NCBI GenBank assembly: GCA_009885845.1
Contig: VFJW01000010.1
Location: forward strand, 1-58,223
DNA from: Geobacter sp.
GTDB taxonomy: Bacteria; Desulfobacterota; Desulfuromonadia; Geobacterales; Pseudopelobacteraceae
Reading direction: 5' to 3'
Length of the DNA stretch: 58,223 bases
Position numbers and translations under genes: made by a program. This document shows positions 11,274 through 15,588 of this stretch, in pieces (the first letter of the stretch is position 1; each line of letters starts with the position of its first letter). The notes beneath the pieces are model-generated. The model did not search any database and had not been told where the DNA came from. It saw nothing but the letters and a program-made list of their open reading frames with translations.

Positions 11274-11430
11274 GGCTTGTCACCCCCTGTAAAAAATAGA
11301 AGCATCGTAGAGTAAATACTGTCACCGTGCAACGTCAAAAACATTAAATGATCTTCCTCTGTACTGATATTTGATTATCGACTGCAAATACTGTAGTATG
11401 TGCAGTTACTGGCGTTCAAAAGGGGATATT

Positions 11431-12669
11431 ATGGCGAGTCAGGAAGAAAAACTCCGCAAGATAATCGATCTTGGCTTTGAAATTTCCCAGATCAAGGACA
11501 TTGATCTTCTTCTGGAGAAAATTCTGCGCGAAGCACGCGGTTTTACCAACTGCGATGCCGGCTCAATATATGTCCGTGAGGGTAACAAGCTGATCTTTCG
11601 CTATGCCCAGAACGACACCATGCAGCGGCAACTGCCGCCAGGCAAAAAGCTTCCTTATTCGACTTTCAGCATACCGATCAGCAACAGTTCAATTGCCGGC
11701 TATGTTGCATCCAACGGCTCTATTCTGAACATTGCAGACGTGTATGAAGTCAACAGCAATTTCCCGTTTTCCTTTAATCGCTCATATGATGATCTTACCG
11801 GTTACCGGACCTGCTCCATGCTGACCATTCCCCTGCAGAATTTTCGCGGAGACGTCATCGGCATCCTTCAACTTATTAACGCGCTCGACAGTCAGGGCGA
11901 CGCTTTTCCCTTTGCTCATGATGATGAAGAAATCATACTGTACTTTGCCAACAATGCCGCAAATGCTATCGAACGTGCAAAAATGACCCGGGAAATTATC
12001 CTGCGCATGAACAAGATGGCCGAACTTCGCGACCCAAAAGAAACCGGCCCCCACGTTAACCGGGTTGCCGCGTATTCGGTTGCCCTGTACGAGGCCTGGG
12101 CTTTTAAACATGAACTGCCGCAGCCGGAAATAGATAGAAACAGGGATGTACTGCGCATGTCCGCCATGCTGCACGATGTCGGTAAAGTTGCCATTTCGGA
12201 CAATATTTTGAAAAAACCGGGGCGTTTTACTCCTGAAGAATTTCAGGTTATGAAGCTTCATACCCTTTACGGTGCGAATCTTTTTTCAGATATTTATTCT
12301 GATTTTGACGAATCAGCCGCTATCGTTGCAATAAGCCACCACGAACGTTGGGACGGCAACGGATATCCCGGACATATTGATCCGCTGACACAGAAAGCAC
12401 TGCCGGGGTATGAGAAGGAAGATGGCTTGGCACGAGGAAAGCGCGGCGAGGAAATCCCGTTTTTCGGGAGAGTTGTTGCTCTGGCTGACGTCTATGACGC
12501 CCTTTCCTGCAGGCGATGTTACAAAGAGGCCTGGGACGAGAGTGAAGTGTTTGAGAACATTCTCAGTGAGGCTGGAAAGCAGTTTGATCCTGAACTGGTT
12601 GAGGTGTTTTCGGAATGCATCGACACGTTCCGCCAGATTGAAAAGCTATATCCCGACCATTCCGAATAA
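11431..12669 (+). CDS. GAF domain / HD-GYP phosphodiesterase
   Basis: 413 aa from the ATG at 11431, which has GGGG 6 bases upstream; an in-frame start at 11371 lacks a ribosome site. Residues about 15-180 form a GAF sensor domain (NCDAGSIYVREGNKL, SIAGYVASNG, VIGILQLINAL). The C-terminal half is HD-GYP: MLHDVGKVAISD with the HD at about 248-249, and HHERWDGNGYPG, followed by RVVALADVYDAL. The family degrades cyclic di-GMP, or in some Geobacter proteins 3',3'-cGAMP. Without a membrane segment it should be a cytoplasmic sensor. The ligand is unknown. Confidence 0.88.
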   Translation: MASQEEKLRKIIDLGFEISQIKDIDLLLEKILREARGFTNCDAGSIYVREGNKLIFRYAQNDTMQRQLPPGKKLPYSTFSIPISNSSIAGYVASNGSILNIADVYEVNSNFPFSFNRSYDDLTGYRTCSMLTIPLQNFRGDVIGILQLINALDSQGDAFPFAHDDEEIILYFANNAANAIERAKMTREIILRMNKMAELRDPKETGPHVNRVAAYSVALYEAWAFKHELPQPEIDRNRDVLRMSAMLHDVGKVAISDNILKKPGRFTPEEFQVMKLHTLYGANLFSDIYSDFDESAAIVAISHHERWDGNGYPGHIDPLTQKALPGYEKEDGLARGKRGEEIPFFGRVVALADVYDALSCRRCYKEAWDESEVFENILSEAGKQFDPELVEVFSECIDTFRQIEKLYPDHSE

Positions 12670-12745: not shown

Positions 12746-13765
12746 TTACAGCGTCCTTCCGTCCGCCTCTGCGAACAATCGCAATTTCTCCATCATTTTT
12801 TCGAATTTCACCGGTTTTAATGACTGGGCACCGTCAGACGAAGCATGTTCCGGGTCCGGGTGCACCTCGATGATCAATCCATCAGCCCCAGCGGCAACAG
12901 CCGCATAGCTCATCGGAGCAACGTAATGATGATTGCCGGTACCGTGAGAAGGGTCGATTACAACGGGGAGATGTGTCTTTCCTTTCAGCACCGGAATCGC
13001 AGATAAATCAAGAGTATTGCGGGTGGCTGTTTCAAAGGTACGGATACCCCGTTCACAGAGAATCACAGACTGGTTGCCTTCACTCATGATATATTCGGCA
13101 CTCATCAGGAGCTCCTGGATTGTCATCGCCATGCCCCTTTTAAGCAGCACCGGTTTACCGATCTGACCGACTTTTTTCAGTAGCGCAAAGTTCTGTGAAT
13201 TGCGTGCGCCAATCTGCAGGATATCGGCATATGCTGCTACCATATCGACCGTTTCCGGGTTGATTACCTCCGTTACAAAAGGAAGTCCGGTCAACTCACG
13301 AGCTTTGGCCAGCAGTTTTAACCCCTCCTCTTCAAGCCCCTGAAAAGAATAGGGAGAAGTACGCGGCTTGAATGCACCGCCTCTCAGAATATGGGCTCCG
13401 GCTTTTTTTACCGCGAGTGCTGATTCTATAATCTGCTCTTCACTCTCCACCGAGCACGGACCTGCCATAATGACGACCTGCGGCCCACCAATTACAACGG
13501 TGTCACTGATCCGCACGACACTCGACTCTTTCTTGACTTCCAGTGAAGCCAGTTTATACGGCTGCAGTATGGGAACAACATTTTCCACCCCATGCAGAGA
13601 CTCCAGCGCCTGCAAAGCAGACTTGCCCCGTTCGTCACCGATTGCCCCGATCACGTCACGCGTCGTGCCATGTATTACGTGCGACGTGTACCCCAACTCC
13701 TTGATCCGCCTGAGAACTTCATCCTTGTCTTTCTTTACAGCTCCCGCCTTCATTACAATAATCAT
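12746..13765 (-). CDS. aroF: 3-deoxy-7-phosphoheptulonate synthase (DAHP synthase, type I-beta)
   Basis: Condenses PEP and erythrose-4-phosphate, the entry step of the shikimate pathway. Residues 1-70 are a ferredoxin-like/ACT-type regulatory domain ([20 protein letters not shown]). The catalytic barrel follows, with [49 protein letters not shown] and [13 protein letters not shown]. The 339-aa length and N-terminal domain fit the Thermotoga/Bacillus-like type. The ATG follows AAAGGA at about 8 bases. Upstream lies an aromatic-rich leader peptide plus terminator, so expression is probably controlled by attenuation. Confidence 0.95.
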
Positions 13766-13793
13766 CTCTTGATCCTTTCCCGCAAACAGCTAA

Positions 13794-13814
13794 GGCCGGA
13801 AGTTTCCCCCGGCC
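13794..13814 (-). promoter_or_regulatory. Second leader hairpin between attenuator and aroF
   Basis: A 6-bp GC stem (GGCCGG 13794-13799 with CCGGCC 13809-13814) and 9-nt loop, just downstream of the attenuator terminator in the aroF leader and about 28 bp before the aroF ATG. It lacks a U-run. It may insulate the ribosome site or stabilise the read-through mRNA. Confidence 0.4.
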
Positions 13815-13840
13815 CTGGCTGAACTGAGTACACAGACAGC

Positions 13841-13873
13841 AAAAAACCGGGGAGACTTTCGTCTGCCCCGGTT
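13841..13873 (-). terminator. Attenuator terminator of aroF
   Basis: On the minus strand AACCGGGG (13873-13866) and its complement (13852-13845) plus inner GAC/GTC pairs form a strong GC stem capped by GAAA. A run of six Us follows, of which the last two bases of the stem form part. It starts 28 nt after the leader-peptide stop codon and lies before aroF, the classic position of a transcription attenuator. Its 5' arm can alternatively pair with 13913-13922 inside the leader ORF. Confidence 0.88.
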
Positions 13874-13900
13874 TGTGGTGTCGTGTGATAGCTTCCTCGC

Positions 13901-13987
13901 TTACACCTGTACCCGGGCAGACAGCCTGAAATAAAAGCCGAACCAAAAGTAAAAGCTGAATGCGATAGAGAAGCGGTTAGTGTTCAT
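13901..13987 (-). CDS. aroF leader peptide rich in Phe, Tyr and Trp
   Basis: A 28-codon ORF starting ATG 13987-13985 and ending TAA 13903-13901. Residues 6-20 read FSIAFSFYFWFGFYF: seven Phe, two Tyr and one Trp in 15 residues. Codons 22-25 contain GTCTGCCCGG (13922-13913), which pairs with the 5' arm of the downstream terminator over 10 bp with one bulged G. Ribosome stalling at the aromatic codons would free this segment, form the antiterminator and allow aroF transcription. With charged tRNAs the ribosome covers it and the terminator forms. No Shine-Dalgarno is visible. Confidence 0.85.
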   Translation of the reverse strand: MNTNRFSIAFSFYFWFGFYFRLSARVQV

Positions 13988-13996
13988 ACATCAGTA

Positions 13997-14025
13997 ATTA
14001 ATCACAACGACCTTCCTGTTGTCAA
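13997..14025 (-). promoter_or_regulatory. Predicted sigma-70-type promoter of the aroF leader
   Basis: Minus-strand TTGACA (14025-14020, perfect -35) is 17 bp from ATTAAT (14002-13997, 4 of 6 to the -10 consensus). Transcription would begin near 13990, only a few bases before the leader-peptide ATG at 13987, giving a nearly leaderless peptide mRNA. Confidence 0.6.
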
Positions 14026-14054
14026 GACCAAATGCTGGGTAATTTTGGCTGAAC

Positions 14055-14083
14055 TTGACTCTCCGCAGTCCCTGTGGTAGTTT
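14055..14083 (+). promoter_or_regulatory. Predicted promoter of trpEG
   Basis: TTGACT (14055-14060), a 17-bp spacer and a weak -10 TAGTTT (14078-14083). This would give a 5' leader of about 20-25 nt before the trpE ATG at 14113, too short for an attenuator. It is divergent from the aroF promoter about 30 bp away. Confidence 0.45.
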
Positions 14084-14112
14084 TCCCCCGATTTCCAACT
14101 TTGAGGTACACG

Positions 14113-15588
14113 ATGTTTTCCCCACGACGCGACACATTTTATTCACTTGCTGAAAAAGGTAACCTGATTCCGGTTTATCGTGAAATCATGGCAGACATGG
14201 ATACTCCGGTCTCAGCTTTTAAGAAGCTTGATGACGGGCAGTTTTCATATCTCCTTGAAAGCATCGAGGGGGGTGAAAAATGGGGGCGTTACAGCTTTCT
14301 CGGTTCAACGCCTTCTGTCATCATTCGCTCAAAAGGGAATCTGGTTGAGACCATTTCGGATGGAATCACGATTCAACAGGAGTCGCCTGATCCGCTTGAA
14401 TGCGTAAAAGCACTTCTGGCACAGTTCACTCCGGTAGAGGTTGATGGTCTGCCCCGTTTTTTTGGCGGGGCAGTCGGCTACCTTGGGTATGATATGGTAC
14501 GCCACTTTGAATCGCTGACATCGGAAAAACCGGCTCTGCTTGATGCCTATGATTCATATTTTCTTATCACCGATACTATCGTGATTTTCGACACCATGCG
14601 TCAAAAAATCAAAGTGGTTTCAAATGCCCATATTTCCGAAAATGTCTTACCTGCCGAGGCATATGATCGTGCAACAAAGAAAATCGACGCCATCATAGAC
14701 CGGCTACGCGCACCTCTTCCAGCGCAAGCAGCTTCAATTTTGGAAAAACCGGTACAGTTCCTCTCCAACATGTCCCGTGTATCTTATGAGAGTGCTGTCG
14801 AGAAAGCCAAGGAATATGTACGATCAGGCGATATCATTCAGGTTGTGCTTTCCCAGCGATTCAGCGGAGAATTGAGCGCCGATCCTCTTGATATTTACCG
14901 GGTACTGAGGACTCTCAATCCTTCCCCGTATATGTTTTTCCTGCGTCTTGACGACACGGTGATCGCCGGCGCCTCTCCGGAAGTAATGGTTCGCAAGGAG
15001 GGAGACCGTGTTGAATTACGTCCCATTGCCGGAACCAGGCCACGCGGTGCTACCCTTGAGGAGGACAATAGTCTGGCAGATGAACTTCTTGCTGATCCGA
15101 AAGAGTGTGCCGAACACGTCATGCTTGTCGATCTCGGCAGAAATGATCTGGGGCGGGTCTGCACTACCGGTTCTGTTATAGTATCGGAATTGATGCTCAT
15201 TGAACGCTATTCTCATGTCATGCATATTGTTTCAAACGTTCAGGGACAATTATCAACCGACTGCGATGCTTTTGATCTGGTTCGGGCCACCTTTCCTGCC
15301 GGCACCTTGTCGGGAGCCCCGAAAGTCCGTGCCATGCAAATCATAGACGAACTTGAACCGGTACGCCGTGAAATCTACGGCGGTGCCGTTGGCTACTTTT
15401 CTTTTTCAGGGAATATGGATCTTGCCATTGCCATCCGTACTCTGGTGATAAAAGACGGAAAAGTTCATCTGCAGGCGGGTGCCGGGATTGTAGCCGATTC
15501 TGATCCGGCAACTGAGTGGCAGGAAACTGTTAATAAGGGAATGGCTGTCATGCGGGCGGTAGAAATCGCTGAGAAAGGTCTGGTCTGA
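14113..15588 (+). CDS. trpE: Anthranilate synthase component I
   Basis: Converts chorismate plus ammonia (from TrpG) to anthranilate, the first step to tryptophan. The start is the ATG at 14113 with GAGG 6 bases before; an upstream GTG frame start at 14074 lacks a site. N-terminal domain motifs include [17 protein letters not shown], near the LLES-type Trp-feedback site. The chorismate-binding domain has [46 protein letters not shown] and [11 protein letters not shown]. 491 aa, normal. It is directly followed by trpG. Confidence 0.96.

Follow-up and report, generated by a model that had tools for sequence, protein, structure and literature searches.

In enterobacteria the trp and phe leader attenuators combine control codons with three pairings of the leader RNA, named 1:2, 2:3 and 3:4; each of these leaders senses one amino acid, and a Shine-Dalgarno sequence stands before the leader. 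In the same bacteria the first shikimate step is divided among isozymes with separate end-product control. The leader described here, which precedes the DAHP synthase gene aroF in a Geobacter genome, resembles the enterobacterial Trp_leader and Phe_leader in layout, but has the codons of three amino acids and no match in Rfam: at the gathering threshold no family, these two included, was found in the window (the whole stretch of DNA analysed, 58,223 nt). When E-values up to 1 were admitted for 13 loci, the sole leader family to appear was Phe_leader, which matched L056 with 29.9 bits (gathering 55) and an E-value of 0.53; we treat this as a chance match below gathering, and the same holds for RcsR1, a rhizobial sRNA, whose match lies just 5' of aroF in another locus (L048:2859-2959, E 0.29).

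Closer in function is the aroR attenuator of aroF reported in Corynebacterium glutamicum (Neshat 2014, via PMC11802643; a candidate in PMC4046766). There, as here, a leader peptide with aromatic codons lies 5' of a DAHP synthase gene, and ribosome stalling is reported to raise transcription (PMC11802643, PMC4046766). The passages on aroR in these sources describe a Phe-Tyr-Phe sequence and mention neither Trp nor anything like the second hairpin and long-range helix discussed below (P3 and P1), and the organism belongs to another phylum; the comparison is one of descriptions only. A further case is the uORFC-13-1 motif before aroF in Acholeplasma, which has been proposed as an attenuator (PMC8632094). 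Like our leader, it joins a candidate upstream ORF with Phe codon(s) to a terminator before aroF, but in the parts of that report devoted to it the motif has a ribosome-binding site, at least one Phe codon, and 24 representatives, from Acholeplasma and environmental sequences only (PMC8632094). Transcripts starting at the leader ATG have been reported for trpL of Sinorhizobium meliloti (PMC7298713) and for leuL, trpL and ilvL of Streptomyces lividans (PMC8079986); as described there, these leaders serve other genes and amino acids, and their starts come from transcript data, whereas ours is deduced from promoter spacing. In a search of mainly freely readable papers, we found no described DAHP-synthase attenuator in Geobacter or the deltaproteobacteria. 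One study scanned a Geobacter genome for RNA motifs and presents Geobacter motifs (PMC11109978), and neither aroF nor DAHP occurs in its main text; the main text of PMC2965389 contains neither of these terms nor Geobacter. As far as this search reaches, the original prediction, which knew of no such attenuator in this group, holds for the group, but DAHP-synthase attenuators as such are known or proposed in Corynebacterium and Acholeplasma. What appears to be new is that one sensor joins three amino acids, that the leader is probably leaderless, and that P3 and the long-range helix are conserved.

The leader, its putative promoter and the gene it would regulate are arranged as follows:

13901 to 13987, minus strand: leader ORF, MNTNRFSIAFSFYFWFGFYFRLSARVQV, 28 codons and TAA, predicted to be leaderless
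14020 to 14025, minus strand: -35 element TTGACA, with an exact match in 123 of 128 relatives
13997 to 14002, minus strand: -10-like element ATTAAT, 17-nt spacer, 9 nt 5' of the leader ATG
12746 to 13765, minus strand: aroF, DAHP synthase, the putatively regulated gene (NF006421, TIGR01361, PF00793, PF18152)
13773 to 13778, minus strand: aroF Shine-Dalgarno sequence AAAGGA, read by eye

Ten Phe, Tyr or Trp residues occupy codons 6, 10, 12-16 and 18-20 of the leader, just as had been claimed for a 28-codon ORF with ten aromatics among codons 6-20, and the sole other match of the peptide has an E-value of 0.67. The aroF product is a DAHP synthase with a ferredoxin-like domain at its N-terminus. 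A second DAHP synthase of the same genome is 54% identical to it, and the region upstream of that gene (L002) is without such a leader.

The promoter elements keep their distance from the leader ATG in relatives. The exact TTGACA lies 35-38 nt 5' of this ATG in the relatives counted above, while in control windows drawn at random an exact match within a 21-position range occurred in 8 of 2540. The best -10 match falls 6-9 nt 5' of the leader ATG in 120 of 128, and the preceding base is a pyrimidine in 126 of 128. Judged from these positions, the transcript would start on the leader AUG or no more than a few nt away from it. A Shine-Dalgarno-like core was found 5' of the leader ATG in 2 of 128 relatives, versus 128 of 128 for aroF. 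Since the TTGACA spacing is conserved and a Shine-Dalgarno sequence is almost absent, the leader mRNA is probably leaderless.

Conservation was followed in 141 genomes of the order, from 29 genera, 28 of which gave a usable leader. A protein match to aroF was present in all 141, though not in every case as an ortholog; 11 genomes were dropped because the match was weak, partial or broken and the ortholog start unusable, which left 130 upstream regions (L001, L004-L032 and L113-L212). These come from uncultured Geobacteraceae, Geobacter, Oryzomonas, Geomonas and Trichlorobacter, among others. An equivalent leader lies 5' of the aroF ortholog in 129 of the 130, and in 128 an aromatic-rich leader ORF ends 129-170 nt 5' of the gene start; L211 has the leader too, but its aroF start is incomplete. 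The sole ortholog without a leader is L116, in genome G069. Most counts therefore refer to 128 leaders, with L116 and L211 left out. At L116 itself aroF directly abuts the end of the upstream gene, which by reading resembles a response-regulator domain. Elsewhere in the sample, two aroF-like matches (G050:C16:6655-7539 and G112:C372:104-844) contain internal stops and are possibly pseudogenes or assembly errors.

When the 420 nt upstream of aroF were scanned for at least six aromatic residues in an 11-residue window, 128 of 129 regions of the order passed; of 252 control windows placed farther upstream, 9 did. The prediction that the aromatic codons would be kept in relatives was borne out: Trp occurs in all 128 leaders (once in 124 of them), Phe in all 128 and Tyr in 126. 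Counted from the automatically chosen ATG, Trp is codon 15 in 121 of 128. Around it an aromatic residue is found at positions -3, -2, -1 and 0 in 89, 79, 98 and 100% of leaders, and at +1, +3, +4 and +5 in 77, 100, 95 and 93%; at these positions Phe and Tyr are exchanged for one another and synonymous codons are exchanged as well. This is how a sensor for any of the three aromatic amino acids would be expected to look, and since nearly every related genome in the sample keeps the device, one switch for all three end products is suggested.

The RNA elements downstream of and within the leader ORF are the following:

13935 to 13940, minus strand: region 1 (CGGCTT), which pairs with 13927-13922 as the 5' arm of the 1:2 hairpin
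13912 to 13922, minus strand: region 2 (GTCTGCCCGGG), within the leader ORF, antiterminator partner of region 3
13861 to 13873, minus strand: 5' arm of the terminator (P2), containing region 3 (13871-13861)
13845 to 13856, minus strand: 3' arm of the terminator, that is region 4, from the fold and comparison with relatives
13841 to 13846, minus strand: terminator U tract (T6), from reading of the sequence

The terminator, AACCGGGGCAGAC-GAAA-GTCTCCCCGGTT followed by T6, spans 13873-13845 and folds at -20.5 kcal/mol, with none of 200 shuffles equally stable. It had been placed 28 nt after the leader; the terminator is there, and the distance from the stop codon to the stem at 13873 is 27 nt. The aroF start lies 75 nt beyond the U tract. 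In the predicted 2:3 pairing, 13922-13912 join 13871-13861 through eight pairs, one mismatch and three pairs; the 63-nt stretch that holds both strands has a predicted fold of -27.8 kcal/mol, a stability that 0 of 200 shuffles reached, and the exact 2:3 pattern has a single occurrence in the genome. The ability of leader bases to pair with the 5' arm of the terminator, a central point of the original prediction, is thus confirmed at the level of folding. The 1:2 hairpin of the window, which shares the first base of region 2, is no stabler than shuffled sequences (-4.6 kcal/mol; 44 of 200 equally stable). The Trp codon (13945) stands 23 nt ahead of region 2 (13922); for the Trp codons of E. coli trpL this spacing is about 17-20 nt.

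Do the relatives keep these alternative stems? Since RNAalifold arrived at no useful structure from 134 leaders in a single MAFFT alignment, the families were aligned separately. Alignment A1 holds 54 sequences of family f1 without genus g7, and A2 holds 60 of the 62 sequences of families f2-f4 (L181 and L198 were left out, their automatic segments being off); the 12 sequences of g7 are in neither alignment and entered the genus-level comparisons. In A2 the eight pairs of the 2:3 stem are formed in 90.1% of cells, five of the eight show changes on both sides, and covariation as high was reached by 0 of 500 shuffles, which, like the permutations below, are uncorrected for shared ancestry. In A1 the stem is 97.5% paired and almost invariant, so this alignment is silent on covariation. 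The alternative stems are therefore kept in relatives, with compensatory changes in 2:3 in f2-f4 and hardly any variation in f1. Individual lineages illustrate how the pairing is maintained. In L203 (genus g15) the RPSAR codons are replaced, yet regions 2 and 3, both altered, have kept their pairing; in two rows of genus g14 (L179 and L197) a G-C pair is flipped to C-G; and in g28 a GGC to GGT change in region 1 is matched by a change in region 2.

The genus-level comparison used one representative per genus (n = 28), and the strands of one genus paired better with each other than with those of other genera. Permutations as low as the observed value numbered 3 of 5000 for 1:2, 0 for 2:3 and 0 for 3:4, as against 1455, 815 and 3705 of 5000 for control combinations of strands; shared ancestry is uncorrected in all of these. 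Throughout the order, then, an aromatic leader ORF is joined to two conserved, mutually exclusive pairings, 2:3 and 3:4, and to a 1:2 protector hairpin over the control codons, which is weak in the window.

A U tract after the terminator stem completes the picture in most lineages. Counted over the 9 nt that follow P2, the number of T averages 5.0-8.0 in 27 of 28 genera but 2.9 in g21, whose 19 genomes have no U tract there; in g27 (one genome) the tract is, by reading, broken, which makes it doubtful. With the tract missing or broken, plain intrinsic termination is not the whole story in these two genera, and if the device works there another output must be used. Some further peculiarities of g21 may be mentioned. 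In loci such as L151, L161 and L163, P2 is extended by arms of the kind CGAACCG...CGGTTCG, and in predicted folds a CGCTTTC before the aroF start is able to base-pair around the Shine-Dalgarno sequence, a hint of translational control.

By its sequence features the aroF leader is of the attenuator type, and the conserved codons and alternative stems support that reading. We are confident that it acts by ribosome-mediated transcription attenuation, governed by the joint supply of charged tRNA-Phe, tRNA-Tyr and tRNA-Trp. Transcription would begin at or beside the leader AUG, and with such a start a ribosome could load on the 5' end of the leader mRNA as it emerges. When charged tRNA is ample, the ribosome would reach the stop codon and cover region 2, so that 3:4 pairs and RNA polymerase halts at the U tract. 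When any one of the three charged tRNAs is short, it would stall in the F-Y-F-W-(F/Y) block of codons 12-16, masking region 1 and keeping region 2 available for region 3; with region 3 so engaged the terminator could not form, and aroF would be transcribed. By our estimate, a ribosome stalled at any of the Phe, Tyr and Trp codons of 12-16 would mask region 1 without covering region 2, one stalled at codons 18-20 would lie partly over region 2, and one at codon 6 or 10 may miss region 1. The last two cases count against the mechanism, as do the U tracts missing in g21 and broken in g27, the near-invariance of 2:3 in f1, the weak 1:2 hairpin of the window and the absence of a leader at L116. In this group of Geobacter relatives a single RNA before one DAHP synthase seems to sense all three end products, and the compensatory changes within leader codons mean that RNA structure and codon sensor evolve in the same bases.

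Leaders rich in aromatic codons are also found outside the order. The sample consisted of named loci and a phylum sample, all picked for a related DAHP synthase, so that its figures are not a census; the initial 128 loci were reduced to 118 (five had no match, two were too short, L253 duplicated L063, and L050 and L086 proved to be members of the order). Six or more aromatics in 11 residues occur in 50 of these 118 upstream regions (23 of 62 named loci and 27 of 56 in the phylum sample), versus 3 of 230 controls, or 11 of 234 in an earlier random draw. Examples come from Syntrophobacterales, Rokubacteria, Planctomycetes and a Deferribacteraceae locus. Elsewhere in the phylum the leader peptides have mostly aromatic richness in common, not sequence. 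TTGAC at 35-38 nt was found in 0 of the 50 aromatic leaders outside the order; it lies at 39-43 nt in L066, L067, L070, L071 and L106, and at 48-59 nt in several others. In 75 of 79 loci, the order included, the leader was followed by an assigned hairpin of -9 kcal/mol or below. In distant loci the automatic assignment was often interleaved or wrong, and two hairpin sets were made; in the second, P2 was chosen with a weight on region 2, leaving the first as the only one unbiased for 2:3. With that first set, 36 loci outside the order gave -17.4 for their own 2:3 strands and -13.2 for swapped strands (0 of 2000 permutations).

It is worth pointing out that the conserved structure does not end with the terminator. 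In addition to the promoter spacing of leaderless type and the 1:2 hairpin, our analysis adds two elements to what had been predicted, both between the U tract and aroF or reaching into that interval:

13792 to 13816, minus strand: P3, second conserved hairpin, arms 13816-13806 with 13802-13792, compensatory changes in several pairs
13872 to 13878, minus strand: 5' strand of P1 (CCACAAA), the last two A shared with the base of P2
13780 to 13786, minus strand: 3' strand of P1 (TTTGCGG), just 5' of the aroF Shine-Dalgarno sequence

P3 is present in most sequences of the order, with L203 as a clear exception; its cells are 96% paired in A2 and 94% in A1, and 0 of 5000 genus permutations were as low. 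Unsupervised RNAalifold runs returned 2:3 with P3 in A1 and P2 with P3 in A2. Taken jointly, P1, P2 and P3 are 92.3% paired in A2, with both-side changes in eight pairs (reached by 3 of 500 shuffles), and 90.7% paired in A1, with nine such pairs (6 of 500). Control pairings of region 2 with the 3' arm of P3 or the 3' strand of P1 gave no signal in the genus comparison. P3 and P1 may tune the read-through transcript.

The conservation of P3, with its compensatory changes, speaks for a reading in which the first switch is linked to a second. Under starvation 2:3 would form and release region 4 for pairing with the 5' arm of P3 (4:5), while under sufficiency 3:4 would coexist with P3 itself (5:6), and the output would be set at P3 or the ribosome site besides the first terminator. 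Such a linked double hairpin would extend the attenuation mechanism set out above and is compatible with it. Within the order, 4:5 is better within than between genera (6 of 5000 permutations as low), but the signal is small, at -17.4 versus -16.9. With the second hairpin set, own and swapped strands give -15.8 and -13.2 over 58 loci of the wider set, and -13.1 and -11.4 over the 32 outside the order (0 of 2000 in both), and the Rokubacteria loci L066 and L071 carry a T7 tract after P3 and none after P2. Against this, the hairpins were assigned automatically, several of them wrongly, kinship is uncorrected, and the first hairpin set yields no signal for 4:5 outside the order (15 loci; 400 of 2000). 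Moreover, 3:6 gives a signal similar to that of 4:5, so P2 and P3 may merely share a core sequence. We regard the linked switch as possible, if on balance doubtful.

P1 raises the question of translation. The bases before P2 (CCACAAA, CCGAAA, CCAAAA or CCGGAA) match TTTGTGG, TTTCGG, TTTTGG or TTCCGG before the aroF ribosome site in a lineage-specific manner; 0 of 5000 genus permutations were as low, and the strands of a genus pair better with each other than with swapped ones in 26 of 28 genera. The window genome has one A.C mismatch in P1, and pairing is poor in certain genera, g10, g11 and g13 among them. Within f2-f4 the covariation score was reached by 17 of 500 shuffles, and the helix remains 79-83% paired when slid by one column; RNAalifold, run unsupervised on A1 and A2, never predicted it. 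Support for P1 is accordingly good between genera and modest within f2-f4. The helix would enclose P2 and P3 in a junction, and with its 3' strand 15-21 nt 5' of the aroF start this junction could limit translation of the read-through RNA. Stalling would then break P2 and P1 and free translation, and attenuation might be mainly translational, this being the only level in g21, which retains the leader, 2:3, P1 and P3 while lacking the U tract. That the Shine-Dalgarno sequence itself is left uncovered by P1, that the helix is modestly supported within f2-f4, and that U tracts are retained nearly everywhere outside g21 speak against this, and we consider a mainly translational device rather unlikely.

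A functional small protein, with the hairpin as an ordinary terminator of its gene and aroF served by another promoter, could account for the good conservation of the peptide in the order, non-aromatic residues included, but is highly improbable, since the best-kept non-aromatic residues are encoded by regions 1 and 2 and co-vary with their pairing partners, and since the peptides elsewhere in the phylum share little sequence beyond their aromatic richness.

Transcription attenuation by the three aromatic tRNAs thus remains our preferred reading, and a bolder form of it may be sketched: an order-wide leaderless attenuator that senses the three tRNAs in one codon block, drives a linked cascade of two hairpins (2:3 with 4:5 versus 3:4 with 5:6), and is coupled to aroF translation by the long-range helix, its output having moved among P2, P3 and the ribosome site by lineage. 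In that full form we think the proposal unlikely. As similar leaders are found in part of the phylum and beyond, their origin, their loss and the swapping of outputs between termination and translation are testable.

Finally, a few words on the neighbouring genes. Genes for tryptophan synthesis adjoin the locus in the form of trpE (ATG 14113, plus strand), which is divergent from the aroF leader; the two gene starts are 348 bp apart, with window positions 13988-14113 between leader and trpE. Of 36 genomes with a trpE match, 30 loci of the order were checked for a leader upstream of that gene, and none reached six aromatics in 11 residues. In G077, G079, G071 and G093 the starts of trpE and aroF lie about 1.4 kb apart, and the intervening stretch is therefore different in the window genome. 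On the other side, positions 11371-12669 encode a protein with GAF and HD domains, on the strand opposite to aroF and convergent with it.
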